Below the pieces are notes generated by a model. It searched no databases. It was not told where the DNA came from and saw only the letters and a program-made list of their open reading frames with translations. Below, piece by piece: positions 10,566 to 26,784 of a stretch of DNA of 64,000 nucleotides; position 1 is the stretch's first letter, and each line of letters starts with the position of its first letter. The position numbers and the translations under genes were made by a program. The stretch spans positions 1 through 64,000 of the forward strand of contig NZ_JACSQI010000004.1 of NCBI RefSeq assembly GCF_014836715.1, read 5' to 3'. The stretch is from Escherichia whittamii (GTDB lineage Bacteria; Pseudomonadota; Gammaproteobacteria; Enterobacterales; Enterobacteriaceae).

Positions 10566-13062
10566 GTTCACTGCCGTACAGGCAGCTTAGAAAGTTCATG
10601 ACGTGGTGTGAAGAGCGCGGGATGAGTTCACTGCCGTACAGGCAGCTTAGAAATCAATGAGCAACTTTGGGCTTGCTGTGGGCACGTTCACTGCCGTACA
10701 GGCAGCTTAGAAATTGATTCTGTCATCGCTGGCTGGTTTGTGCTGGTTCACTGCCGTACAGGCAGCTTAGAAAGAATTCCTGCAAAGCGATATTGACGAT
10801 GTATGGTTCACTGCCGTACAGGCAGCTTAGAAACGTGTCTTTGACATATGGGAAATAAAAAAGAAGTTCACTGCCGTACAGGCAGCTTAGAAAGAAGTCC
10901 ACCAGTCTTTGAATGTGTGCATTTTGTTCACTGCCGTACAGGCAGCTTAGAAAAGGGGGATTTTGTCTATGCTGAAGTAAATGGTGTTCACTGCCGTACA
11001 GGCAGCTTAGAAATGCCGCCAGGGCGCGCCCGTGTAGAACACCCTGTTCACTGCCGTACAGGCAGCTTAGAAACGTCAGGCCGGACAATCTCTAATAATT
11101 CGCGTGTTCACTGCCGTACAGGCAGCTTAGAAACTCAATGCGCCTCGCCAGCTCCGGTGCGCCCATGTTCACTGCCGTACAGGCAGCTTAGAAATCACTA
11201 ATTGAAAAACTAATATTCACTCGTTCGTTCACTGCCGTACAGGCAGCTTAGAAAAATATACAGATTCGGGGTTATGCGGGGTTGATGTTCACTGCCGTAC
11301 AGGCAGCTTAGAAACGAAATTTTTCGCACCGAAATCGCCGAATCTCGTTCACTGCCGTACAGGCAGCTTAGAAAACACACGTAAATATTTACGTACAGGT
11401 GCGCCCGTTCACTGCCGTACAGGCAGCTTAGAAATGTCGGCGCCCACGATAGCGGCGGCGGCTGTAGTTCACTGCCGTACAGGCAGCTTAGAAACTGATG
11501 CCGGGAAAAAAATATATCAGCAGCGAAGTTCACTGCCGTACAGGCAGCTTAGAAAAAAAGAGGGGGATGTTGTTATCACGTGGATTGGTTCACTGCCGTA
11601 CAGGCAGCTTAGAAAAACACTATCGGGGTTGGTTTTGTCCGCTTTAGGTTCACTGCCGTACAGGCAGCTTAGAAAGCATATTGTCAGCGCGATTTCTGCA
11701 ACCGTTCGTTCACTGCCGTACAGGCAGCTTAGAAAAGAAGCATTGCGCCAGGCCGATTTATGCCTGGAGTTCACTGCCGTACAGGCAGCTTAGAAACTGA
11801 CAAAATTTGGCACCGATTTTCCGGCAGTGTTCACTGCCGTACAGGCAGCTTAGAAAGATTGCTATGTAGTCACCCAGGCGCAATACAAGTTCACTGCCGT
11901 ACAGGCAGCTTAGAAAGCCCACTCATTACGCTGAACACGTGATTGAGTTGTTCACTGCCGTACAGGCAGCTTAGAAAGTCTTCCATGTTGCTGATTAGTT
12001 TTAGCGTGTTGTTCACTGCCGTACAGGCAGCTTAGAAAGGCACGCTGGAGGAATTTTTATTAATCGCCGATGTTCACTGCCGTACAGGCAGCTTAGAAAA
12101 GCTGCGCGGCCCTGTTCTGTATCCACAACAAGTTCACTGCCGTACAGGCAGCTTAGAAATGAGCGGCCATCACGTCAGTAATTGTCATTCGGTTCACTGC
12201 CGTACAGGCAGCTTAGAAAGGTTGACGCTGGACCAGTTCCGCGCGATTCACGTTCACTGCCGTACAGGCAGCTTAGAAACTGTTTGATGGCCACGCGAGT
12301 TATCATCTTAACGTTCACTGCCGTACAGGCAGCTTAGAAAATTCCCCATCCTTGATGTAGTCACTTGTGCCAGTTCACTGCCGTACAGGCAGCTTAGAAA
12401 CTGAATCATCAACGTCGCCCAGCGATTCGCGCGTTCACTGCCGTACAGGCAGCTTAGAAAAGAAATAGAAGACGAGAAAACACCGGGCGCGAGTTCACTG
12501 CCGTACAGGCAGCTTAGAAAAGCAGTTCGATCGCTGGCTCAGGCGTCTGAATGTTCACTGCCGTACAGGCAGCTTAGAAACCACCCGAGATACGATCCAG
12601 CAGACTCAAACCGTTCACTGCCGTACAGGCAGCTTAGAAATTTCGCTTCCAGCTCCGCGCGATGGATATACCGTTCACTGCCGTACAGGCAGCTTAGAAA
12701 AGCAACAAAAAACCTGGTGACCGGATGACACAGTTCACTGCCGTACAGGCAGCTTAGAAATTGCCAGTGATTCACGAGGCGAACTGTGTTACGTTCACTG
12801 CCGTACAGGCAGCTTAGAAAATTTGTCATGTGTAAAGGGGTGTACATACGTGTGTTCACTGCCGTACAGGCAGCTTAGAAATTAGCCGCCAGAACGAACA
12901 CACGACGCAGCGCGTTCACTGCCGTACAGGCAGCTTAGAAAAGGGCGACCAGTGCCACCAGAATTAATATTTTGTTCACTGCCGTACAGGCAGCTTAGAA
13001 AACAGACAATCAATCGAATTAATTTCGAGGCCGGGTTCACTGCCGTACAGGCAGCTTCACAA
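10566..13062 (+). CRISPR. type I-F CRISPR array, 42 repeats and 41 spacers
   Basis: The 28-bp repeat begins GTTCACTGCCGTACAGGCAG and ends CTTAGAAA; it contains the CTGCC/GGCAG hairpin recognised by Csy4. Repeat starts run 10566, 10626 ... 12974, 13035. Forty-one repeats appear identical on inspection; the last (13035) has a diverged 3' end (CTTCACAA for CTTAGAAA), the usual mark of the leader-distal end. Thirty-two spacers are 32 nt and nine are 33 nt, which accounts exactly for the 2497 bp. The crRNA 5' handle would be CUUAGAAA. I saw no duplicated spacers; targets cannot be identified without a search. ORFs crossing the array are artefacts of the repeat frame. Confidence 0.98.
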
Positions 13063-13232: not shown

Positions 13233-14234
13233 ATGTCTTCCAAATACCTTACCCCATCTGACCTCAAAACAATTCTCCACTCCAAACGAGCCAATATTTA
13301 TTATCTGGAAAAATGCCGGGTGCAGGTGAATGGAGGGCGGGTGGAGTATGTTACCAGTGAAGGTAAGGAGTCGTACTACTGGAATATCCCCATTGCGAAT
13401 ACCACGGCATTGATGTTGGGGATGGGAACTTCCGTTACCCAGGCGGCGATGCGTGAATTTGCCCATGCCGGGGTGATGGTAGGATTTTGTGGTACGGATG
13501 GTACGCCGCTGTATTCGGCAAATGAAGTTGATGTTGATGTTGATGTTGATGTTGATGTCTCCTGGCTCAGTCCGCAAAGCGAATATCGTCCTACTGAATA
13601 TCTTCAGCAGTGGGTTTCTTTTTGGTTTGCTGAAGATAAACGACTTGCCGCCGCGAAACGTTTTCAGTTAATCCGCCTGACACATATCGATAAGCACTGG
13701 ACCAGCGCGAAAATGCAGCGTGAACACGCCTTTCAGCCTGATGCTAATGCGCTCCAGACCCTGCTAAATCGTACTCGTGAAGAAATAGATGCGGCAGAAA
13801 ACCATACGCAGCTTATGCTCGTAGAGGCCAAATTGACCAAAGCACTCTACAAAATAGTGAGTCAAACCGTGGCCTATGGCGACTTTACTCGCGCAAAGCG
13901 GGGCGGTGGGATTGATATGGCTAACCGCTTCCTCGATCAGGGGAATTATCTGGCTTACGGCCTGGCAGCAGTGGCAGCGTGGGTAACCGGGATCCCGCAC
14001 GGTTTAGCAGTAATGCACGGTAAAACACGTCGCGGCGGACTCGTTTTTGACCTCGCCGATCTGATTAAAGATGCCCTGGTTATGCCACAAGCATTTATTG
14101 CCGCAATGGCGGGAGAAGATGCTCAGGAGTTTCGTCAACGCTGCATCAGTATCTTTCAACAAGCGGATGCGCTGGATGTCATGATCACCTCTCTGCAGGA
14201 AACGGCCCTGGCATTGGCTAAGGCTGACCAATGA
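13233..14234 (+). CDS. cas1: CRISPR integrase Cas1 (type I-F)
   Basis: About 333-aa Cas1 of the Ypest/I-F type. With the Cas2 domain of Cas2-3 it integrates new spacers. The conserved metal-binding acid lies near residue 197 (VEAKLTKALYK) and the catalytic His and Asp in HGKTRRGGLVFDLADLIKD near 260-275. Start: the ATG at 13233 has CAGGA seven bases upstream; a GTG at 13227 would add two residues. Oddity: residues about 98-107 read as five Asp-Val pairs encoded by tandem GATGTT units, where the P. aeruginosa homologue I recall has far fewer. The stop overlaps the cas2-3 ATG (ATGA). Confidence 0.96.
   Translation: MSSKYLTPSDLKTILHSKRANIYYLEKCRVQVNGGRVEYVTSEGKESYYWNIPIANTTALMLGMGTSVTQAAMREFAHAGVMVGFCGTDGTPLYSANEVDVDVDVDVDVSWLSPQSEYRPTEYLQQWVSFWFAEDKRLAAAKRFQLIRLTHIDKHWTSAKMQREHAFQPDANALQTLLNRTREEIDAAENHTQLMLVEAKLTKALYKIVSQTVAYGDFTRAKRGGGIDMANRFLDQGNYLAYGLAAVAAWVTGIPHGLAVMHGKTRRGGLVFDLADLIKDALVMPQAFIAAMAGEDAQEFRQRCISIFQQADALDVMITSLQETALALAKADQ
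13528..13558 (+). repeat. hexanucleotide tandem repeat inside cas1
   Basis: Five tandem copies of GTTGAT-type units (GATGTT in frame), the last diverging to GATGTC, encoding an Asp-Val run. Each unit is two codons, so slippage changes length without a frameshift. Confidence 0.85.
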
Positions 14235-17200
14235 ATGTCCTGATTATCTCGCGCTGTACGAAAAACGCTCGCGTGGAAAGTTGCCGCATTATTGACCAGT
14301 TTGCCGAACGCACCGGTGATGCAGCCTGGCAAACAGTGATCACCATGGAAGGTGTTAATACGTTACGCCGTTTATTGCGCAAAACCGCCCGACGAAATAC
14401 AGCGGTTGCTTGTCACTGGCTGAAGAAGAATGGGCAAACGGAGTTGATGTGGATTGTCGGTAATATTCGTCGCTTTAATGCTCAGGGCCGCGTTCCCACG
14501 AATCGAACAACGCAAACCAGCCTGGTGAACAAGGACGAAAACCGTTGGCAATGCGCGGAGAGCATTGCGCTGCTGGCGGCCATCGCAGGGTTATTTCATG
14601 ATTTTGGTAAATCAGGGCGCAGCTTTCAGCAAAGCCTGACTCAAAAGAGCGCACGAAGTTATCAACCTTACCGGCATGAATGGATCTCATTGCGGCTTTT
14701 CCAGGCGTTTGTTGGTGAACAGTCAGACGATGTTTGGCTGGAGAAACTCGGGGAATTAACGGCAGATGATGAAACTGCGATTCTTGAGCGCCTGCAAAAA
14801 GACACACCTCATTTTTCAAATAGTCCATTCAGTTTGCTGCAACCACTCGCCAAAACGGTAGGTTGGCTGATCCTTTCCCATCATCGAATGCCGGAGAATC
14901 TTTCGCCACAACCAGAACAATCATGCAAAGGCTGTGAAAGCTGGCTGGAGAAGCAACTCAATGCTGACTGGAATGCCATTAACCACCGCAAGAATGACTG
15001 GACGCAACAGGATTTCGAGCAAGTCTGGCAGTTTCCGTCAGGAACGCCGCTTCAAAGCGCAAGCTGGCGAGAAAAAGCGCGTCAGATAGCCCGCCGTGCG
15101 CGTAACTCCAACGGTTTAAAGGAATGGGGACAGATGGAGCAACTGTTTCCATTACATATGGCGCGTTTTTGCCTGATGCTTGCCGATCATTACTATTCCT
15201 CCAGCGACGCGCAGCAAAAATGGCAAGACCCGGATTATATCGTCTGGGCAAATAGCGATCGTCAAAGCGGCGCTCTCAAACAACGGGTAGATGAGCATCT
15301 TGTGGGCGTCGCGCATCATGCGTACCTGCTTGGGCGGCAACTGATGCACACACGGGCATCGCTTCCGGCAATTGCCCGGCATAAAGGTTTTAGCCAGCGA
15401 GCCTCGGATGCGAAGTATCGCTGGCAAGATAAAGCCTGGGATGTGGCGCGAGCGTTACGTGAACGAAGTCGTGAAGAGGGCTTTTTCGGCGTCAATATGG
15501 CCTCGACGGGATGCGGTAAAACCTTTGCTAATGCTCGCATTATGTATGCACTTGCCGATGAGCGCGAAGGGTGCCGCTTTACCGTTGCGCTGGGATTGCG
15601 TACGCTGACTTTGCAAACCGGCGACGCTCTACGTAGTCGGCTTGGATTGGGTGAGGATGAGCTGGCTGTATTGATTGGTTCGGCGGCAGTTAAACAACTC
15701 TGGCAACAGGAAAAAATAGAGAGTGATTGTGGGAGTGCTTCGCAAGAGTCGCCAGCAGAGGAGCAACAGTTCGTTAAGTACGAAGGTAGCCTGCATACCG
15801 GGGCGCTGGACAAATGGTTGCAGGATGACAGCAAACTTAAGGAGCTAGTGAGCGCGCCGATTCTGGTCGCGACGATTGATCATCTCATTTCCGCGACGGA
15901 AGGTGTGCGAGGCGGAAAACAGCTTCCGGCGATGTTACGTCTGTTAACCAGCGATTTAGTGCTCGACGAGCCTGATGACTTTGATATTGCCGATCTTCAT
16001 GCGGTATGCCGTTTGATGAACTGGGCCGGGATCCTGGGAACGCGGGTATTACTCTCCTCGGCGACGCTGCCGCCAGGGCTGATTCAGGCACTGTTCGCGG
16101 CTTATCTTGCGGGCCGCAAAATGTGGCAGGCGTCATGTGGTACGAGCGGCAGGCCCGTCAATATCTGCTGTGCCTGGTTTGATGAAAAAGATGCTGATGC
16201 AACGCAAATTTGCGACGGGCCAGGGTTTCGTGATGCACATGCAAAATTTGTTGCACGACGAGCGGTGATGCTGGCTGAAAAAGAGCGACTGCATTTCGGG
16301 CGTATTGCTTCAATTTCATCTGCATCAAGCGCGATGCAAGATGTCACCGAAAGTGTGGCCCAGACGGTGCATACGCAAATGCTGAAGTTGCATCAGGCGC
16401 ATCGCCAGCAGCACGAAAGCGGCAAAACCGTTTCGCTGGGTCTGGTGCGCTTCGCCAATATCAATCCACTGGTTGCAGTGACCAAAGCCCTGATTGCCAT
16501 TCCATCCCCAGAAGATGTTTGTATTCATTATTGTGTTTACCACTCCCGACATCCGCTGGCGGTGCGTTCAGATATTGAAAAGCGCCTGGACCGTGCTTTT
16601 ACCCGTCATAACGAACAAGATTTCTGGAACAACGAAGATATTGCTGAAGCCTTATATGAAAGTCCGGAATCGCACCATCTTTTTGTAGTGTTGGGTACAT
16701 CAGTAATAGAAGTCGGGCGTGACTGGGATGCGGACTGGGGAATTATTGAACCAAGCTCCATGCGTTCGATTATTCAATTTGCCGGACGTATTCAGCGCCA
16801 CCGCAGAAATGTGCCGACCAGTGAGAATCTGGTTATTTTACGAAGCAATATCAAAGCGTTGCAGAAAAAAGTTCCCGCATTTTGTAAGCCGGGTTTTGAA
16901 ACAAAAGAGCGTTTGCTGAATAGCCAGGATATTTGCGAACTGATTCCGATTGCGGACTACCGGACGATTAACGCCTTGCCGCGGATCCTGTCTGCCAATA
17001 ATGACAACAAACTGGCGGAGCTTGAGCATAGTCGTTTATCCGCCGAATTGATGAGCAGTAAAAGCAAACATGTGGTAGCGGCGCAATGGTGGCGTGCACC
17101 GCTAAGTTGGAACGGCTGGATGCAACGCCAGACGCCATTTCGATATTCCCCTTTGCCGGAGGCCGTGTTTTTTCTGCATATGGATGATGAAGAAAGCGAA

Positions 17201-17464
17201 GCGCGTTTCTATTCCCATACGGGCGACTACGAGCGTAAAGCGCAAGGGAATTTCAGGCGAGAAGAGGTGAGATGCGCCAGCGGTGTCGCTTGCTGGGGTG
17301 TGATGGATTACCAACAAGTTTTGTTGAATTTAGCGGATAAGCAAGGTTGTGAAATACAGCGCGTCGGGGAAATGTTTGCTGAAGTGAGGGTACCGACCAG
17401 TGAAGAAGATGCGGTCTGTGACTGGCGTTATCACCCCTGGTTGGGCGTGTTTCGTAACCTGTGA
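14231..17464 (+). CDS. cas3f: Cas2-Cas3 fusion nuclease-helicase (type I-F)
   Basis: 1077-aa fusion diagnostic of type I-F. Residues 1 to about 95 are the Cas2 domain (MNVLIISRCTKNARVESCR start), used in adaptation. The HD nuclease follows, with GLFHDFGKSG near 120. The SF2 helicase has Walker A TGCGKT near 426, DEPDD (motif II) near 578, SATLPP (motif III) near 609 and FAGRIQRHRR (motif VI) near 849. A C-terminal accessory domain completes it. It is recruited by the Csy complex to unwind and degrade target DNA and binds Cas1 during spacer acquisition. All motifs are intact, so it is predicted active. It overlaps cas1 by 4 bp. Confidence 0.97.
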   Translation: MNVLIISRCTKNARVESCRIIDQFAERTGDAAWQTVITMEGVNTLRRLLRKTARRNTAVACHWLKKNGQTELMWIVGNIRRFNAQGRVPTNRTTQTSLVNKDENRWQCAESIALLAAIAGLFHDFGKSGRSFQQSLTQKSARSYQPYRHEWISLRLFQAFVGEQSDDVWLEKLGELTADDETAILERLQKDTPHFSNSPFSLLQPLAKTVGWLILSHHRMPENLSPQPEQSCKGCESWLEKQLNADWNAINHRKNDWTQQDFEQVWQFPSGTPLQSASWREKARQIARRARNSNGLKEWGQMEQLFPLHMARFCLMLADHYYSSSDAQQKWQDPDYIVWANSDRQSGALKQRVDEHLVGVAHHAYLLGRQLMHTRASLPAIARHKGFSQRASDAKYRWQDKAWDVARALRERSREEGFFGVNMASTGCGKTFANARIMYALADEREGCRFTVALGLRTLTLQTGDALRSRLGLGEDELAVLIGSAAVKQLWQQEKIESDCGSASQESPAEEQQFVKYEGSLHTGALDKWLQDDSKLKELVSAPILVATIDHLISATEGVRGGKQLPAMLRLLTSDLVLDEPDDFDIADLHAVCRLMNWAGILGTRVLLSSATLPPGLIQALFAAYLAGRKMWQASCGTSGRPVNICCAWFDEKDADATQICDGPGFRDAHAKFVARRAVMLAEKERLHFGRIASISSASSAMQDVTESVAQTVHTQMLKLHQAHRQQHESGKTVSLGLVRFANINPLVAVTKALIAIPSPEDVCIHYCVYHSRHPLAVRSDIEKRLDRAFTRHNEQDFWNNEDIAEALYESPESHHLFVVLGTSVIEVGRDWDADWGIIEPSSMRSIIQFAGRIQRHRRNVPTSENLVILRSNIKALQKKVPAFCKPGFETKERLLNSQDICELIPIADYRTINALPRILSANNDNKLAELEHSRLSAELMSSKSKHVVAAQWWRAPLSWNGWMQRQTPFRYSPLPEAVFFLHMDDEESEARFYSHTGDYERKAQGNFRREEVRCASGVACWGVMDYQQVLLNLADKQGCEIQRVGEMFAEVRVPTSEEDAVCDWRYHPWLGVFRNL

Positions 17465-17474
17465 CGGAGGGCTG

Positions 17475-17544
17475 GCTGCCTGTACGGCAGTTTACAAGTC
17501 CGTATCCGGAGATACCTCTATTTCTTAGCTGCCAACGGCAGTGT
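17475..17544 (-). ncRNA. candidate cas-regulating mini-CRISPR RNA (CreR/CreA-like)
   Basis: Minus-strand unit in the cas2-3/csy1 gap. Repeat 1 (17544-17521) keeps the hairpin CTGCC-GTT-GGCAG and the full 8-nt handle CTAAGAAA. The spacer is 25 nt (17520-17496). Repeat 2 (17495-17475) keeps GTAAACTGCCGTACAGGCAG. A promoter at 17549-17577 would start RNA at the first repeat. Csy4 processing would give a short crRNA whose first 11 nt match 17639-17649 beside a CC PAM. CreR/CreA RNAs of this design, with degenerate repeats and partial complementarity to a nearby promoter, repress cas genes or toxins in other CRISPR types. The architecture is visible in sequence; the function is inferred. Confidence 0.72.
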
Positions 17545-17548
17545 GCGA

Positions 17549-17577
17549 ATGTTAGTTGTTAAATCATTGTGTGGCAA
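17549..17577 (-). promoter_or_regulatory. promoter of the mini-CRISPR RNA
   Basis: Minus strand reads TTGCCA (17577-17572), a 17-bp spacer and TAACAT (17554-17549). Five of six and four of six positions match the sigma-70 consensus, with ideal spacing. The predicted start falls at 17542-17544, the first bases of the degenerate repeat. Confidence 0.65.
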
Positions 17578-17603
17578 ATATTTTATGCATGGTAATATCA
17601 CCA

Positions 17604-17631
17604 TTGGTTATTGCATGGATTTGACTAGATT
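17604..17631 (+). promoter_or_regulatory. possible csy operon promoter
   Basis: TTGGTT (17604-17609), 16 bp, TAGATT (17626-17631). An alternative -35 is TTGACT at 17621, whose -10 would fall inside the seed-match site. Either way, transcription of csy1-4 would start within or beside the mini-CRISPR target at 17639-17651. The boxes are imperfect and other choices exist. Confidence 0.4.
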
Positions 17632-17638
17632 AAAACGC

Positions 17639-17651
17639 AGATACCTCTAGG
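17639..17651 (-). promoter_or_regulatory. seed-match target site with CC PAM for the mini-CRISPR RNA
   Basis: The minus strand reads CC (17651-17650) followed by TAGAGGTATCT (17649-17639), identical to spacer nt 1-11 of the mini-CRISPR. Position 12 mismatches, and positions 13-14 match again. CC is the I-F PAM, correctly placed 5' of the protospacer. The site lies about 140 bp upstream of csy1 and covers the ribosome-binding site of the small ORF at 17662. The identical bases inside the mini-CRISPR itself lack a PAM. Confidence 0.7.
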
Positions 17652-17661
17652 TGAACTATCC

Positions 17662-17745
17662 ATGATTATCACCACGGGCGTTGTCCCTTTTACTGTGTGT
17701 GTCGTTGTACTGAAGCCTGGTTGGGCTACGGAGATTTTTCAGTGA
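17662..17745 (+). CDS. candidate 27-aa hydrophobic peptide upstream of csy1
   Basis: ATG to TGA, 27 codons. AGGTG (17649-17653) lies 8 bases before the ATG, a good ribosome-binding site. The peptide starts MIITTGVVPFTVCVVVLK; residues 6-17 are strongly hydrophobic, and the C-terminus is short and polar. It lies between the mini-CRISPR target and csy1, ending 46 bp before csy1. Its SD overlaps the predicted Csy-complex target, so its expression would fall if the complex binds there. It could be a CRISPR-repressed toxin (CreT-like), a csy leader peptide or chance. No homologue recognised. Confidence 0.4.
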   Translation: MIITTGVVPFTVCVVVLKPGWATEIFQ

Positions 17746-17791
17746 AATCAGGGAGCAACTTCAATTTGATGGATTAACGAAAGGAGCCGAA

Positions 17792-19099
17792 ATGGAAAAA
17801 ACGGCGCTAATACAATTTATCACTGACTACATCGCTTCGCGAAGGCAACCCAAAATCGATGCCTTTGAAAAAGAAGCAGCAAAGCGGTTGGAACAGGGCG
17901 AGGACGCCAGCGTTATCGCTCTGGAGCGGCAGGAACTCCAGGCGCGTTACCAGCCTCGTAACTGGTTAATGGATGCGGCGAAGCGTGCCGGGCAAATTAA
18001 GTTAGTCACTCATGGCGCTAAATTTAGTCATGGTGATTCTAAAGCCAGCAGCTTTTATCTGGACACTTCCGTTAACGAAAGCTATTTAAACACGGCATCG
18101 TTGGCGAATGTTGCTACTGACGCGATTGGCAACGCCGCCGCACTGGACGTCGCAAAACTGCTACAAACCGATGTCAATGGAGATTCACTGCTTGCCAGTC
18201 TTAAGTGCGGTGATTATCAGGCATTAAGCACGTTTGCAGAGGATGAAGCTCAACTGGAGCAGTGGGTAACTGGGTTTAGCCAGGCATGGACACTTGTACA
18301 GCCTGTCAGCCATAAACTGGCAAAACAAATCTATTTCCCTGTCGATGATGGCTATCACCTGTTATGCCCGCTGTTTTCCAGTTCTCTGGCGCAGGCGATG
18401 TATGAAAAACTAATTGCCGTGCGTTTTAGCGAGGAATCGAAAGCCATTCGCGATGCCCACAAAGCAGGAAAATGGCACTCCCAGCCAGATATCCGCTTTC
18501 CTAATCTTGCCGAAATGCATTTTGGAGGCACAAAACCGCAGAATATCTCTCTGCTCAACAGTGTTCGTGGTGGTCGTATCTGGCTATTACCATCAATGCC
18601 CCCCACCTGGTCGACGCAGACTCGTGCACCACACAACATGCACAGTATTTTTGCCTTACGCGGCGATTTCAATCGGGCGGCTTCGGGCATCATAGCCCGG
18701 ATGACTTATCTGCTGAAGGTTGACATAAACAATGTTCATATCCGTACTGCGCGCGCGAAATATATTGATGAGTTGATTGATCTGCTGTTCATGCAGGCAT
18801 CCTCTTTTCAGCAAGAAAAATGGCAGGGTTGGTCAGCACAATCACCAGACTTACCACGTCACCAGCAGCTTTGGCTGGACCCGTGGCGAAGCCTGTCAGA
18901 TGAGGCTTTCAAACTGGAGCGTGAGAAAAACGACTGGCAGAGGACGGTCGCCGATGACTTTGCGCGCTGGCTGAACTATCGCCTGAAAAAAGCCCGTTTC
19001 GATGTCGGTGCTGTCGAGCAAAGGGAGTGGCGCAGTCAGTCCCTGTTTACTCAACGGATGCGTGAAATGGAAGCCGTTTTGCAGGAGGCGCTGAAATGA
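17792..19099 (+). CDS. csy1: type I-F Csy complex subunit Csy1 (Cas8f)
   Basis: 435-aa large subunit of the I-F effector. Csy1 and Csy2 form a heterodimer at the crRNA 5' handle, and Csy1 reads the CC/GG PAM. Start: the ATG at 17792 with GGAG six bases upstream (AAAGGAGCCGAA). The sequence matches the I-F Cas8f family over its length, with the conserved PLFSSSLAQ and RFPNLAEMHFGGTKPQNIS segments near residues 195 and 235. It is the first gene of csy1-2-3-4, all closely spaced. The upstream 327-bp gap holds the mini-CRISPR and its target site. Its stop overlaps the csy2 start. Confidence 0.95.
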   Translation: MEKTALIQFITDYIASRRQPKIDAFEKEAAKRLEQGEDASVIALERQELQARYQPRNWLMDAAKRAGQIKLVTHGAKFSHGDSKASSFYLDTSVNESYLNTASLANVATDAIGNAAALDVAKLLQTDVNGDSLLASLKCGDYQALSTFAEDEAQLEQWVTGFSQAWTLVQPVSHKLAKQIYFPVDDGYHLLCPLFSSSLAQAMYEKLIAVRFSEESKAIRDAHKAGKWHSQPDIRFPNLAEMHFGGTKPQNISLLNSVRGGRIWLLPSMPPTWSTQTRAPHNMHSIFALRGDFNRAASGIIARMTYLLKVDINNVHIRTARAKYIDELIDLLFMQASSFQQEKWQGWSAQSPDLPRHQQLWLDPWRSLSDEAFKLEREKNDWQRTVADDFARWLNYRLKKARFDVGAVEQREWRSQSLFTQRMREMEAVLQEALK

Positions 19100-20019
19100 G
19101 TTATCTGCTCTTGTTACCCCATATACGCATAGAAAACGCTAACGCCGTCTCCGGGTTGACCTGGGGATTTCCGTCGATGACCCATTTTCTCGGTTATGTT
19201 CATGCGCTTTCTCGCAAGGTGGTGGACGAATTTGGCGTGAGTTTTAACGGTTGTGCGGTAGTAAGCCATGAACAGCATATTCAGGCATACAGTTCCGGGC
19301 GCGATTTTCAGTTTGCGCTCACCCGTAACCCATTAACCAGAGAAGGTAAAACCGCGTCGTTCAATGAAGAGGGGCGTATGCACCTGACGGTTTCTCTACT
19401 TATTGAATGTAATGGTGAAATTACTAATGGTGAATACGGTAGAAAAGCCCTGTGTGACCATCTGAAAGTGCTTTGCCAGAGCCATAAACTGGCGGGTGGC
19501 AGCATTGTCAGTATGCGCGAACCGCAGCTTTTTCATGCTCCTGAAGATGAAAAGCAACTGCGTAAAATCATCTGGCGTTTAATGCCTGGTTACGCGCTTT
19601 ACGATCGCAGCGAATGGCTGGCTGAACATCACCAACAACATCCCGACATATCGTTGCTTGATGCCTGGCTTGATTTTGCCGCCATTAAATATCAGGCCGA
19701 ATCTCCGGCAGAAGACAACAGCGCACAATGGGTATACCAGCCGAAGCCAATGCCTGGTTTCCTGGTGCCGTTAATGTGCGGTTACCAACGCATATCTCCT
19801 GTTTACGCTCCCGGTGAAGTTGAAAATGCGCGCGATACCGTGACGCCATTTGCCTTTGCCGAAGCGGTTTATGGCATTGGCGAATGGCGCGGATTACATC
19901 GCATTACTGACTTACAACCGCTGATGTGGCGCTACCGTACAACGGACACTGGTTACTATTGCTCGGCAATACCAGTCGTTGACGACCCTACTACTAATGA
20001 AGATGACGATACAGAATAA
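19096..20019 (+). CDS. csy2: type I-F Csy complex subunit Csy2 (Cas5f)
   Basis: 307-aa Cas5-type RAMP protein that caps the crRNA 5' handle with Csy1. The N-terminus ([27 protein letters not shown]) is typical of Csy2, and a [14 protein letters not shown] segment occurs near residue 265 ([17 protein letters not shown]). The ATG overlaps the csy1 stop by 4 bp, implying translational coupling. No damage is visible. Confidence 0.95.
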
Positions 20020-20029
20020 GGACATAATT

Positions 20030-21031
20030 ATGGCAAAGGCCCCTGTAGCAGTAAAAACGGCGTCAGTACTGGCATTTGAGCGCAAACTGGCAACCTCTGA
20101 CGCGGTGATGTACGCAGGTAACTGGCAAGGAAATGAATGGCAACCTATTGAGATTCAGGAGAAAGCGGTACGCGGAACCATCTCCAATCGCCTGAAAAAC
20201 ACGATTACCAGCGACCCCACCAAACTGGATGCAGAAATCCAAAAAGCCAACTTGCAGCGGGTAGATGTGGCAGCGCTTCCGGTTGATGCTGATACGCTAA
20301 AAGTGATGTTTACGCTGCGCGTGCTGGGTAATTTATCCTCACCTTCAGTATGTAATGATATGGCGTATCAGGAGGCGCTTTCCGACGTTATTGAAGGTTA
20401 TATCAGCGAACATGGCTTTAAAGAGCTGGCGCTTCGCTATGCCCTGAATCTGGCAAATGGTCGTTTTCTGTGGCGTAACCGTATCGGTGCCGAGCAAATT
20501 CAGGTGAAAGTCACCGCGAACAACAAATCATGGACTTTTAACAGCCATGACTTCTCTTTACGTCAATTTGATCAGGGCCAGAGTAGCGTCACAAAACTGG
20601 CGTCAACGATTGAACAAGGATTAAGCGGGAAAGAGTGGGTAATGCTTACCGTTGAAGCGCAGGTTCGTCTTGGTGCCGGGCAAGAAGTTTTCCCGTCGCA
20701 GGAGCTGGTACTCGACAGCAACAGTAGCAAAAGTCGCGTGTTATATCAGGTGGCTGGCATTGCCGGAATCCACTCTCAGAAGATTGGCAATGCTTTACGT
20801 ACCATCGATACCTGGCATCCGAAAGTTGATGAATTGGGGGCTATCGCCGTGGAACCTTACGGTTCTGTAACCAGTCGCGGTGTGGCCTGCCGTCAACCGA
20901 AAGAAAAACTCGATTTTTATACCTTATTGGACAATTGGGTGACTAAAGGGATGAAACCAGACGTTGCGCAGCAGCACTACGTGATGGCTGTGCTGATCCG
21001 TGGCGGTGTCTTTGGTGAGAAATCGGAATAA
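20030..21031 (+). CDS. csy3: type I-F Csy complex backbone Csy3 (Cas7f)
   Basis: 333-aa Cas7-family protein. Six copies polymerise along the crRNA spacer and flip out every sixth base. Start: the ATG at 20030 ([20 protein letters not shown], the usual Csy3 beginning) with AAGGA 9 bases upstream. An in-frame ATG at 19979 inside csy2 would add 17 unrelated residues. Conserved features include [11 protein letters not shown] near residue 104 and [14 protein letters not shown] near 142. It lies 10 bp after csy2. Confidence 0.95.
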
Positions 21032-21041
21032 GGAGCTGCCA

Positions 21042-21596
21042 ATGGATCACTACCTTGAGATCCGCGTTCTGCCAGATCCTGAATTTTCGAGCGAAATGTT
21101 GATGGCGGCGTTATTTGCCAAACTGCATCGGGTATTAGGTGCAAGGGGGCAAGGTGATATCGGCGTGAGTTTCCCGGACGTTAATGTTATGCCTGGAGCG
21201 CGTTTACGCTTGCATGGAAGCCCTCAGGCATTGCAGGCGCTTGAAGCCTCAGCGTGGCGTAAAGGACTTACGGATTATTGCCAATGTTCGCCTGTCACTC
21301 CCGTTCCAGAAATAAAGGGCTGGCGAGTAGTAAGCCGTGTGCAGGTTAAAAGTAACCCCCAGCGTCTGTTAAGGCGTTCAGTGAAAAAAGGCTGGCTTAC
21401 TGAAGAACAGGCGATTGAGCGACTGGCGACGCAAGCTGAACAGCGGACCGATTTACCTTTTCTTAATATGAAGAGTTTATCGAGTCAGCAGCAGTTCAAA
21501 TTGTTTATCCGACACGGGGATTTGCTTACGGAACCGGTTAAAGGGGTATTCAGTAGTTATGGATTAAGCGCAACCGCCACTATTCCCTGGTTTTGA
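21042..21596 (+). CDS. csy4: crRNA endoribonuclease Csy4 (Cas6f)
   Basis: 184-aa Cas6f that cuts each repeat just 3' of the CTGCC/GGCAG hairpin and stays bound to the crRNA 3' end. The catalytic histidine is present at residue 29 (FAKLHRV). The Arg-rich helix that enters the hairpin groove (SNPQRLLRRSVKKG) is near residues 105-118. The C-terminus YGLSATATIPWF is typical. Start: the ATG at 21042 (MDHYLEIRV) has AAGGAG seven bases upstream. It ends the operon and is followed by a terminator at 21616. The second CRISPR array common after csy4 in E. coli I-F loci is not seen here. Confidence 0.96.
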   Translation: MDHYLEIRVLPDPEFSSEMLMAALFAKLHRVLGARGQGDIGVSFPDVNVMPGARLRLHGSPQALQALEASAWRKGLTDYCQCSPVTPVPEIKGWRVVSRVQVKSNPQRLLRRSVKKGWLTEEQAIERLATQAEQRTDLPFLNMKSLSSQQQFKLFIRHGDLLTEPVKGVFSSYGLSATATIPWF

Positions 21597-23258: not shown

Positions 23259-23272
23259 ATCAGGGATTGATT

Positions 23273-25759
23273 ATGTCTAAACTTAATTCTATTACACTGG
23301 CTATTCTGTCGGTGTTGGCAACGTCATCTGCATGGGCTAAAGATGAAACATTTGACACCCATTTTATGATTGGCGGATTAAATGGGGAAAAAATTTCTGA
23401 CTATCATATTAATAGTGATAAGCCGATGCCCGGTATCTACGATATGGATGTTTACCTGAATAATCAGTGGCGCGGACACTATAATGTCGATATTAAAGAT
23501 GATCCGGATGCTACATGTCTATCCTGGGATCAGTTAAAGCAAATAGGGATCCTCACTGAAGGAATTAGTGTCGATAAAAGCATTGAATGTGTACCACTTC
23601 GGGATGCAGTACAGGGAGGCCGCGTCGACTATGATATTGGGCATTTCAACCTGAAGTTAAGTGTACCCCAGGCCTATGTCGTTGAGTATGAACGCGGATA
23701 TGTCCCGCCTGAGGCATGGGATCGCGGGATTAACGCATTATATACTTCTTATTATGCCAGTCAGTATTACAGCAATTATAAGCATGGAGGAGATAATAAA
23801 AGTAGCTATTTAAATCTGAACAGTGGGTTAAATCTCCTGGGCTGGCAGTTGCATTCAAATGCCAATTATACGAAAAGTGACGAGAGCAGCGGTAAATGGA
23901 AGAGTAACACGTTATATCTGGAGCGCGGAATTTCACAAATACTTGGCACATTGCGTGCGGGTGAAATGTATACCGGTTCTGATGTTTTTGACTCAGTGCG
24001 TTTTCGCGGTGTACGCCTTTGGCGCGATATGCAAATGTTGCCGAACTCTAAACAGAATTTTACTCCTGTGGTGCGCGGAGTTGCCCAGAGTAACGCACTT
24101 GTCACTATCGAACAAAATGGCTTTGTGATTTACCAGAAAGAGGTTCCGCCAGGACCATTCGCCATTGATGATTTGCAACTTGCTGGTGGTGGGGCAGATC
24201 TGGAAGTTACCGTTAAAGAAGCTAACGGTTCGGTTTCGCGTTATCGTGTACCTTATTCATCGGTGCCAAATATGTTGCAACCGGGCGTTTCGAAATATGA
24301 ATTTGCTGCCGGACGTAGCCGTATTGAGGGAGCCAGCAATCAGTCGGATTTTATTCAAGGAAGCTATCAGTATGGTCTTAATAATTTGCTGACACTGTAT
24401 GCTGGCACGCAGCTGTCTGATAATTATTCATCATTTGTTCTCGGCACAGGATGGAATACACCGATTGGTGCTGTATCGGTTGATTTTACCCATTCACACA
24501 GTGAGCAAGATAACGGTGATGTATTTAATGGTCAAAGTTATCAGGTTGCCTGGAACAAATATCTCTCACAGAGTGGGACGCAATTTTCTCTGGCTGCATG
24601 GCGTTACTCTTCTCGGGATTATCGTACTTTTAACGATCACGTGTGGGCAAATAACAGGAATAGATATAATCGCGAAGATGACTCAGTTTATGATATCGCC
24701 GACTATTATCAGTATGATTTCGGTCGTAAGAACAGCTTTTCTGTCAACATAAACCAGTCATTACCGGAAAAGTGGGGATATTTATCGGTCAGCGGTCAAT
24801 GGCGGGATTATTGGGAACGCGATGGGACAGGGAAAGATTATCAACTCAGCTATTCGAATTCCTGGGAACGCCTTAGTTATACCTTGTCTGTTAGCCAGAC
24901 TTACGATGAAGATAACCGCGAAGATAGACGCATTAACTTATATTTCTCAATTCCCTTCTCGTGGGGCGATGGAATCACTGAAAAACGACGAGATTTATTT
25001 GTTTCTAACTCGACCACTTTTGATAAAGACGGCTATCGGTCGAATAATACCAGCCTCAGCGGTGTAGCGGGGAGTCGCGATCAGTTCAGCTACGGCGCTA
25101 ACTTAAGCCATCAACACCATGGCAGCGAAACAACAGCAGGTGGAAACCTGACCTGGCGTGCGCCATTGGCGACTATTGGTGGCAGCTATAGCCAGTCGAA
25201 AAGATATCAACAGATTAGCGGTAATATTCAAGGCGGTTTAGTCGCGTGGGCGGACGGGGTTGCACTGGCTCCCAGACTTTCCGATACGTTCGCTATTGTC
25301 AAAGCGCCGGGGCTGGAGGGAGCGGCGGTGCAGGGATATCGTTACCTGACCACGGATAGCAAAGGCTACGCTATTTATGACAACCTGACGCCGTATCGTG
25401 AAAATACGTTGCTGTTGGATATTGCAGACAGTAAAAACGATGTGGCGCTTCTGGGTAACCGCAAAAGCACCGTTCCATATCGTGGTGCGGTAGTGATGAC
25501 GCAGTTTGAGACTGATAAACGCAAACCCTGGTATTTCCTCTCCCAACGTCCTGATGGTTCTCCGTTGCCGTTTGGTTATGAGGTTGAAGATGAAAGCGGC
25601 AATAATGTGGGCTTAGTAGGGCAGGGAAGTCGGATATTTATTCGCACCAATGATGTTCCCGCGGCGATTCGCGTCTCGGTTAATAAACAGCAGGAACAAT
25701 TCTGCACTATTACCTTTGATAACGTTATTGATGAGAATAAAGTTTATATTTGTCGTTAA
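23273..25759 (+). CDS. outer-membrane fimbrial usher
   Basis: 828-aa usher. The signal peptide ends at SSAWA, and the N-terminal periplasmic domain starts KDETFDTHFMIGG. A long 24-strand beta-barrel with aromatic and Tyr/Asn/Ser-rich strands and a plug region (ANALVTIEQNGFVIYQKEVPPGPFAIDDL) follows. Two C-terminal domains end in a Cys pair (EQFCTITF...VYICR). It secretes and polymerises the fimbria. Start: the ATG at 23273 has CAGGGA six bases upstream; a TTG two codons earlier is unlikely. It ends 11 bp before the tip protein gene. Confidence 0.93.
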   Translation: MSKLNSITLAILSVLATSSAWAKDETFDTHFMIGGLNGEKISDYHINSDKPMPGIYDMDVYLNNQWRGHYNVDIKDDPDATCLSWDQLKQIGILTEGISVDKSIECVPLRDAVQGGRVDYDIGHFNLKLSVPQAYVVEYERGYVPPEAWDRGINALYTSYYASQYYSNYKHGGDNKSSYLNLNSGLNLLGWQLHSNANYTKSDESSGKWKSNTLYLERGISQILGTLRAGEMYTGSDVFDSVRFRGVRLWRDMQMLPNSKQNFTPVVRGVAQSNALVTIEQNGFVIYQKEVPPGPFAIDDLQLAGGGADLEVTVKEANGSVSRYRVPYSSVPNMLQPGVSKYEFAAGRSRIEGASNQSDFIQGSYQYGLNNLLTLYAGTQLSDNYSSFVLGTGWNTPIGAVSVDFTHSHSEQDNGDVFNGQSYQVAWNKYLSQSGTQFSLAAWRYSSRDYRTFNDHVWANNRNRYNREDDSVYDIADYYQYDFGRKNSFSVNINQSLPEKWGYLSVSGQWRDYWERDGTGKDYQLSYSNSWERLSYTLSVSQTYDEDNREDRRINLYFSIPFSWGDGITEKRRDLFVSNSTTFDKDGYRSNNTSLSGVAGSRDQFSYGANLSHQHHGSETTAGGNLTWRAPLATIGGSYSQSKRYQQISGNIQGGLVAWADGVALAPRLSDTFAIVKAPGLEGAAVQGYRYLTTDSKGYAIYDNLTPYRENTLLLDIADSKNDVALLGNRKSTVPYRGAVVMTQFETDKRKPWYFLSQRPDGSPLPFGYEVEDESGNNVGLVGQGSRIFIRTNDVPAAIRVSVNKQQEQFCTITFDNVIDENKVYICR

Positions 25760-25770
25760 AGGATTTGTTT

Positions 25771-26784
25771 ATGAAAAAATATTGTTTTTTGTTTTTACTG
25801 GCTTTGCCTTTTTGGGGGCAGGCTAAATGTACCCTGGGGCCTAATACAACAGCAAGCCAAACGATAGAACTAGATATGGCACAAGATACGGTAACGGCTG
25901 TAATTAATACAAATTTAGTTGATACGTTCACATGTAATGCAACAAGCGATAAAATGTATTATGCAACACCGTTAAAAGATTATATCGTTGAACTTAGAGA
26001 GTCGGATTCGGGGAAGTCAATTTTTATGAAATTTAATCTTGAGAGTAGTAGTTTTCCTGTTTCTACTGGAACTGATTCCTTGGGTGCTTCTCCAAAAGAA
26101 TATAACACTCAGGATGTTATAAATACCAAGCCGTTCACTCTTAAGGCCGAATATGTAGGGCCAACGAGTAAAGTAGACCATACAATAACCACCAATATCG
26201 ACAAGATAACCATCCCGCGCCCCGCTATTAGCATACTAACAGATAACTCTTGCAATAATAATATCATATCATGGCTTTTATGTTGGGTTACTGGGCGACT
26301 AAATAGTGATGTTTCTTATACTCAGAATATAGAATTTAGCATCAAACACAAACCCACAACCTGTAGTTTCTCGCAACAGACTTATGAAATAAGAATGCCA
26401 GAAACAACGATAAGTGAGATGCAATCTGCCAATAACACAAAATCAGGTTCTATAGATCTGGTTTTAAATTGCAACAGTGTTTATAACGTCACGACTAATC
26501 CAGTAAGTTTTAAAGTTGCGCGTGGTGAATGGGATGATAGTGGAACAATACTGAAAAATACATTACCCGATGGTGCTAAGGGGGTTGGGTTCCAGATTTA
26601 TAATGGTAACGCAACGACACCGTTAAAGTTAGGCGATACTCTAATGAACAAACTAACTAAAATGGCGGCCATTGAGAATCAGTACACTTTCCCGATCACC
26701 GCGAAATATGTCCGCGTGAAGGAGGAAGCACTACAGCCTGGAGAAGTCCAAAGCAAAGCGATATTTGCCGTATCTTACGACTAA
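25771..26784 (+). CDS. fimbrial tip adhesin-like protein
   Basis: 337-aa secreted protein, signal peptide MKKYCFLFLLALPFWGQA. The size and layout suit a two-domain tip adhesin. Residues about 20-185 form an unrecognised N-terminal domain, probably receptor binding, with Cys residues at both ends. From about 195 a pilin domain follows, with Cys in TTCSFSQQTYEIRMPE and LVLNCNS and a C-terminal strand QSKAIFAVSYD. Codon use is AT-rich in the N-terminal half compared with the usher. SD AAAGGA is seven bases before the ATG. No ligand can be predicted. Confidence 0.8.
   Translation: MKKYCFLFLLALPFWGQAKCTLGPNTTASQTIELDMAQDTVTAVINTNLVDTFTCNATSDKMYYATPLKDYIVELRESDSGKSIFMKFNLESSSFPVSTGTDSLGASPKEYNTQDVINTKPFTLKAEYVGPTSKVDHTITTNIDKITIPRPAISILTDNSCNNNIISWLLCWVTGRLNSDVSYTQNIEFSIKHKPTTCSFSQQTYEIRMPETTISEMQSANNTKSGSIDLVLNCNSVYNVTTNPVSFKVARGEWDDSGTILKNTLPDGAKGVGFQIYNGNATTPLKLGDTLMNKLTKMAAIENQYTFPITAKYVRVKEEALQPGEVQSKAIFAVSYD

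Follow-up and report, generated by a model that had tools for sequence, protein, structure and literature searches.

A mini-CRISPR upstream of csy1 in type I-F loci of Escherichia and relatives carries a putative guide to a PAM-flanked site of its own locus

Our data show that the spacer of a degenerate mini-CRISPR, located between cas2/3 and csy1 in a type I-F locus of Escherichia whittamii, pairs through its first nucleotides with a site upstream of csy1, that this pairing is linked to a CC protospacer-adjacent motif (PAM) and that it has been maintained in evolution. We propose, with a probability of roughly 0.8, that a guide from this mini-array, loaded in the Csy complex, binds the site and represses csy1-csy4. 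We infer that the minus-strand mini-array (17475-17546) would be transcribed and processed into a crRNA-like guide, cut out by Csy4 and loaded by Csy1-4. The loaded complex would bind the CC-flanked site at 17636-17651 by a short R-loop (nt 1-5, 7-11 and 13-14) and block transcription of csy1-csy4, limiting its own supply, and the block would be lifted by ample ordinary crRNAs or by an anti-CRISPR (Acr) protein. Repression of csy1-4, its relief by crRNA competition or Acr proteins and the absence of Cas3 cleavage are plausible predictions. If the proposal is true, the I-F systems of Escherichia and its relatives would sense crRNA load and anti-CRISPRs by means of a guide made for binding and not for cutting.

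The window, that is, the whole stretch of 64,000 nucleotides analysed here, contains cas1, a cas2/3 fusion, csy1-4 and 28-nt I-F repeats, which places its locus in type I-F (Table 1). The main array comprises 41 intact repeats with spacers of 32 or 33 nt, its last repeat being worn, and 327 nt separate the end of cas2/3 (17464) from the start of csy1 (17792). The preliminary description of this DNA had claimed that a minus-strand CC in this gap (17651-17650) is followed by a stretch identical to spacer nt 1-11, that position 12 mismatches, that positions 13-14 match and that the matching then ends. All of this was found: TAGAGGTATCT stands at 17649-17639, the target reads G, C, G at positions 12 to 14 where the spacer has C, C, G, position 15 mismatches and past position 14 there is at most scattered agreement in the window. 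The 64-kb window has two copies of TAGAGGTATCT, one within the mini-array (17510-17520) and the other at 17639-17649, and none appeared in 100 shuffles; the target lies about 120 nt from the mini-array spacer. CC followed by the seed (N at position 6) is present once in the window and once in the 4.55-Mb genome. The copy in the mini-array is preceded by AA and not by CC, in agreement with the earlier claim that it has no PAM. When the window spacer is compared with its own locus, the target matches at 10 of 10 seed positions and the runner-up CC site at 5. The PAM of I-F systems in E. coli was given by Almendros et al. as GG on the other strand (PMC3506596).

Table 1. Features of the I-F locus and of the cas2/3-csy1 gap in the window
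Feature	Position	Strand	Remark
Main I-F CRISPR array	10566..13060	+	Putative source of competing crRNAs
cas2/3 (Cas3f)	14231..17464	+	
Degenerate repeat 2	17475..17495	-	
Mini-array spacer, 25 nt; seed = nt 1-11 (17520-17510)	17496..17520	-	
Degenerate repeat 1: stem CTGCC/GGCAG, 3-nt loop, handle CTAAGAAA	17521..17546	-	
Candidate mini-array promoter, TTGCCA-17-TAACAT	17549..17577	-	Weak: one hit, with 0.7 expected from shuffles
Candidate csy1 promoter, GTGGCA-16-TAATAT with TGn	17571..17598	+	Inferred, weak; score like that of shuffles (z 0.6)
Target, identical to spacer nt 1-11 and 13-14, mismatched at 12	17636..17649	-	
CC PAM of target	17650..17651	-	Unique with seed in window and genome; PAM control
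Hydrophobic ORF of 27 aa, located where relatives have a membrane-peptide ORF of ~50 aa	17662..17745	+	
csy1 (cas8f), cas gene 3' of target	17792..19099	+	
csy2, csy3, csy4 (remaining Csy complex genes)	19096..21596	+	

To see how widespread such pairs are, we collected the regions upstream of csy1 in related genomes. Csy1 was found in 59 of 392 genomes of the family and in 60 of 394 genomes of the order. The family search gave upstream regions for 56 of 61 match rows (30 loci and 26 stretches), with five fragmentary rows excluded, the order search gave 30 loci from 62 rows, seven of them repeating loci of the family search, and a scan of named genomes covered 80 of 102 relatives. On the 80 named loci, a target-blind detector (hairpin, handle, second hairpin) returned 37 candidates, five of which were dropped for poor repeat stems, leaving 32; the detectors had been widened to admit the 3-nt loop of the Escherichia repeat 1, which was missed by their first versions. 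A further 31 arrays were chosen by hand for the resemblance of their repeats. With G615 removed as a duplicate of G692 and the arrays already among the named loci merged, 19 of them were added, for a total of 51 mini-arrays, the hand-picked ones not being blind since some matches had already been noticed by eye beforehand. The score was that of the best CC site per locus over spacer positions 1-5 and 7-11.

A CC-flanked site of the same locus scoring at least 9 out of 10 was obtained for 47 of the 51 mini-arrays upstream of csy1 (29 of the 32 target-blind and 18 of the 19 hand-picked ones), with 31 scores at 10, 16 at 9, one at 8, one at 7 and two at 6. Dissimilar foreign spacers swapped into the same regions reached 9 in 3 of 2,288 trials, and when CC was replaced by any other dinucleotide at most 2 of 51 mini-arrays reached this level. 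No site of at least 9 was found for four of the 51: L126, the first spacer of L129, L177 and G700. The named pairs belong to Pectobacterium, Brenneria, Dickeya, Serratia, Photorhabdus, Erwinia, Cedecea, Leclercia, Citrobacter, Enterobacter, Rahnella, Escherichia, Aeromonas, Stenoxybacter, Azonexus and Thiohalomonas, and to metagenome bins labelled Enterobacterales, Porticoccaceae, Proteobacteria, Phycisphaerales and Lamellibrachia endosymbiont.

Some loci of the survey depart from the common arrangement. L129 (Stenoxybacter acetivorans) has two adjacent mini-array spacers, one scoring 10 and the other 6 at best. In L143 (Cedecea), L138 and L153 (Photorhabdus) and G663, the mini-array lies on the usual strand but the target does not. 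The third base of the PAM region is G in none of the 35 minus-strand targets versus 4 of the 12 plus-strand targets, so that no general rule can be drawn for this base.

The positions beyond those used for scoring tell which machinery is likely to read the site. After dereplication of the 47 pairs by their first eight spacer bases, 42 were left, and positions 13 to 17, which played no part in the selection, match in 38, 28, 25, 27 and 32 of them respectively, against 17, 13 and 14 for positions 6, 12 and 18. Over all 47 pairs, positions 6, 12 and 18 match 20, 13 and 16 times, for 15.9, 13.8 and 14.0 expected from base composition. I-F Cascade pairs in a 5+1 pattern (PMC7305327), and the flipping out of positions 6 and 12 invoked in the preliminary description is consistent with these counts: both match near the composition level, unlike 13-17, as expected for the Csy complex. 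The 47 pairs would form a natural record of the crRNA positions needed by the I-F complex for binding in vivo (1-5, 7-11 and 13-17; not 6, 12 and 18).

In E. coli the region is present in 237 of 5,426 complete genomes, records very near the window possibly being missing from this count. Seven E. coli loci picked from 60 rows across the ranking, together with four Escherichia loci from other searches including the window, resolve into seven distinct spacer/target pairs. In aligned columns, spacer and target both have G at seed position 5 in five pairs and both have T in the two others (G234, L002); position 6 is mismatched in four of the seven (L145, L146, L002 and L004), and position 12 is C in all seven spacers and in none of the targets. 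Double changes in the same column were also seen between G456 and G488 at positions 7 and 8, and between the Photorhabdus loci L138 and L153 at positions 4 and 10. Aligned-column cases alone were used as evidence of co-change, raw counts of seed co-changes being partly built in because the pairs were selected for a score of at least 9. G538/G709, L130/L140 and G692/G538 were not counted as double changes, their targets lying in different columns. Independent divergence of spacer and target in homologous loci had been named beforehand as the outcome that would speak against a functional pair, and co-variation as the one in its favour; the pairing was kept in 47 of 51 cases, with double changes in aligned loci. 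Judged by these comparisons, the complementarity is maintained by selection. Given the swap and PAM controls, the chance-level matching at 6, 12 and 18 versus conserved 13-17, and the double changes, it is very probably the Csy (I-F) complex that reads the site at 17636-17651.

How the bound complex would act on csy1 depends on its promoter, the position of which in Escherichia is unsettled. With the candidate at 17571-17598, the target would lie downstream of the start site and the bound complex would be a roadblock shortly into the transcript. The TAATATCAC of this candidate is unchanged in the eight sequences of an alignment of the window with seven E. coli (A1) and altered in L145/G139, L146 and G234. 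A consensus scan of 17400-17860 found no plus-strand promoter and did not report the candidate. Over the 47 pairs, the best predicted promoter overlaps the target in 14, below the level of shuffles (44%). Among the 28 non-Escherichia loci whose target is on the minus strand, 16 have the -35 box of the best sigma-70-like promoter starting 0-4 nt past the PAM, for 3.9% in shuffles, a count made post hoc since the pattern was noticed and then counted on the same loci; the same placement occurs in none of the seven Escherichia alleles and in 1 of 12 loci with a plus-strand target. The earlier claim that the site sits beside the probable csy1 promoter is weak.

At least 237 nt lie between cas3 and csy1 in each of the 29 named loci with a pair; in the 48 named loci without one the gap is at most 121 nt in 34 and longer in 14. 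These gaps come from a simple open-frame rule that gave no value for 3 of the 80 loci and is possibly in error for the largest gaps. The two genes are 330 bp apart in E. coli LF82, where a co-transcript was not found and csy1 expression was detected in normal culture by RT-PCR (PMC3506596), so that any repression would be partial.

The main reading has a serious competitor, to which we give somewhat less than even odds: a toxin-antitoxin system of the CreTA/CrePA kind, in which the guide would mainly silence a small membrane peptide encoded between the target and csy1. The peptide would be freed when the Csy complex is lost or an anti-CRISPR is present, and would harm the cell; this is compatible with csy1 autorepression, and in Escherichia the module would have decayed, leaving the csy1 effect alone. 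A hydrophobic ORF of 45-62 aa starting at most 150 nt past the target is indeed present in 19 of the 40 non-Escherichia pairs, for 1.5% in shuffles, and in 26 of 40 versus 10.5% when the limit is lowered to 19 aa. Ten of these ORFs have related C-terminal tails (SIFTFNFK, FSIFSITINRN and similar, counted by eye). Among eight ORF pairs, the six giving a dN/dS are all below 0.6 (0.20, 0.32, 0.24, 0.38 and 0.56, raw ratios without significance test; the sixth, 0.20, repeats an identical sequence), the two others being identical or saturated. The -35 boxes abutting the PAM outside Escherichia point in the same direction, as does the CreTA module of the Citrobacter rodentium I-E system, which has the same layout and lies between cas3 and the large-subunit gene, with a crRNA-like gene on the opposite strand, a PAM-flanked partial target at a promoter and a small ORF ahead of the cas genes; this translated 96-bp ORF was shown to be toxic, its toxicity requiring translation (PMC12055562). 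That module (PMC12055562) differs in its type (I-E), in its ATG PAM and in its toxic ORF, which is not known to have relatives, whereas the ORF of the window seems eroded. CrePA (Shu et al., via PMC12737573) likewise involves an effector-repressed gene that would be freed by anti-CRISPRs; its toxin typically has a KilA-N domain according to that review, while the I-F relatives have a small hydrophobic ORF of putative activity.

Against this reading, the toxicity of the peptides is putative, and no convincing match was found for six of them in Pfam and NCBIfam, nor for four in PADLOC and PHROGs. The ORF is also absent from 21 of the 40 non-Escherichia pairs, of which seven carry an ORF of about 107 aa instead, and no ORF of at least 19 aa was found past the target in L168, L170, G663 and G681. 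None of the seven Escherichia alleles has the 45-62-aa ORF, all having hydrophobic ORFs of 20-27 aa. That of the window, with 27 aa and a weak profile match (E 0.019), is probably a remnant, and the short Escherichia ORFs in general would likewise be decayed forms rather than the ancestral condition. From the target to csy1 there are 130-156 nt in Escherichia and 192-372 nt in the other hydrophobic-ORF loci, with three longer values (636, 753 and 861), the group with ~107-aa ORFs being excluded from these distances. The guide-target pair is nevertheless still maintained in Escherichia. The continued co-variation of its match there argues for a remaining effect on csy1-4, and its persistence despite the 20-27-aa remnants fits the proposed autorepression of csy1. 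The two readings could be joined: many Enterobacterales I-F loci would hold a guide-target-promoter-peptide cassette, a toxin system under CRISPR repression with a peptide family of its own, of which the toxin is dead in Escherichia and the guide-target pair survives as a pure csy1 autorepressor. We put this forward tentatively, as a scenario somewhat less likely than not. If it is true, Escherichia would show a toxin-antitoxin system caught turning into a regulator, and the family of small ORFs would be a novel variant should its members prove toxic. The small hydrophobic ORFs allow a simple direct test of whether many I-F loci are toxin-guarded.

A soluble ORF of about 105-120 aa lies between the target region and csy1 in G538, G692, G560, G588, G700, G709, G456 and G488, loci of the order search in which both mini-array and target are on the plus strand. 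Family searches with the ~107-aa ORFs of this group gave sub-threshold matches only.

The site could also mainly repress the divergent mini-array, in an autoregulation of the guide with csy1 as a bystander, which we regard as improbable. Since the mini-array is read on the minus strand, its promoter would be expected before 17546, on the side of the target, and a weak candidate is present at 17577-17549. Some 60 nt, however, separate this candidate from the target; the mini-array of the plus-strand group (G538 etc.) is oriented toward csy1 and has the target downstream of it, and the -35 boxes abutting the PAM point toward csy1. A last hypothesis is that of chance likeness or of an inert duplication, with either the spacer derived from the csy1 upstream region or the latter from the spacer, and a functionless decay since then. 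It agrees with the end of the window match after position 14 and is made very unlikely by the swap and PAM controls, the double changes in aligned columns and the chance-level matching at 6, 12 and 18 but not at 13-17. A chance match as such is rejected on the swap and PAM controls and on the counts in window and genome.

Standalone repeats and mini-arrays partly complementary to cas promoters, cas8 especially, were reportedly described by Shmakov et al. in 2023, and one I-F1 mini-array is said to have been shown there to function as a guide in regulation. That work may already cover the small ORFs, the co-variation table and the PAM/-35 spacing. In print, CreR are cas-regulating RNAs from mini-CRISPRs (Liu et al. 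2023, Cell Host Microbe 31:1481, via PMC13131331, PMC12948488 and PMC12737573), and their autorepression is reported for types I-B, I-E and V-A (PMC13131331). As in those systems, the window has a mini-CRISPR with degenerate repeats near the cas genes and a partial complementarity with a PAM upstream of the cas operon, the CreR guides having limited complementarity to the cas promoter region. It differs from the types reported there (I-B, I-E, V-A) by its type, I-F, by its 25-nt spacer and by a repression that is putative. With CreR in print for these types and the reported I-F1 guide mentioned above, the guide-target pair belongs to a known kind, and is most likely a mini-array of the CreR kind, already described. 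In a partial survey of the literature, which supports no claim of unpublished status, we did not find the small I-F ORFs or the Escherichia site described. What is added here to the preliminary description is the short hydrophobic ORF that about half of the relatives carry between target and csy1, and the link to CreR.

Regarding the mini-array itself, the loop of repeat 1 has 3 nt, that of the canonical repeat 5, and the 25-nt spacer is shorter than those of the main array (32 or 33 nt). Folding of the mini-array RNA is predicted to pair the repeats mutually, without separate Csy4-type hairpins, and to form a spacer hairpin that takes in seed nt 6-10, which speaks against the proposed guide. 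The eight sequences of A1 are identical over 17475-17514, which covers the 3' part of the spacer together with repeat 2; this 3' part is without pairing to the target, and a GUAUC-UCCG-GAUAC hairpin is predicted there. Downstream of the I-F locus, a fimbrial usher and an associated gene occupy 23267-26784.
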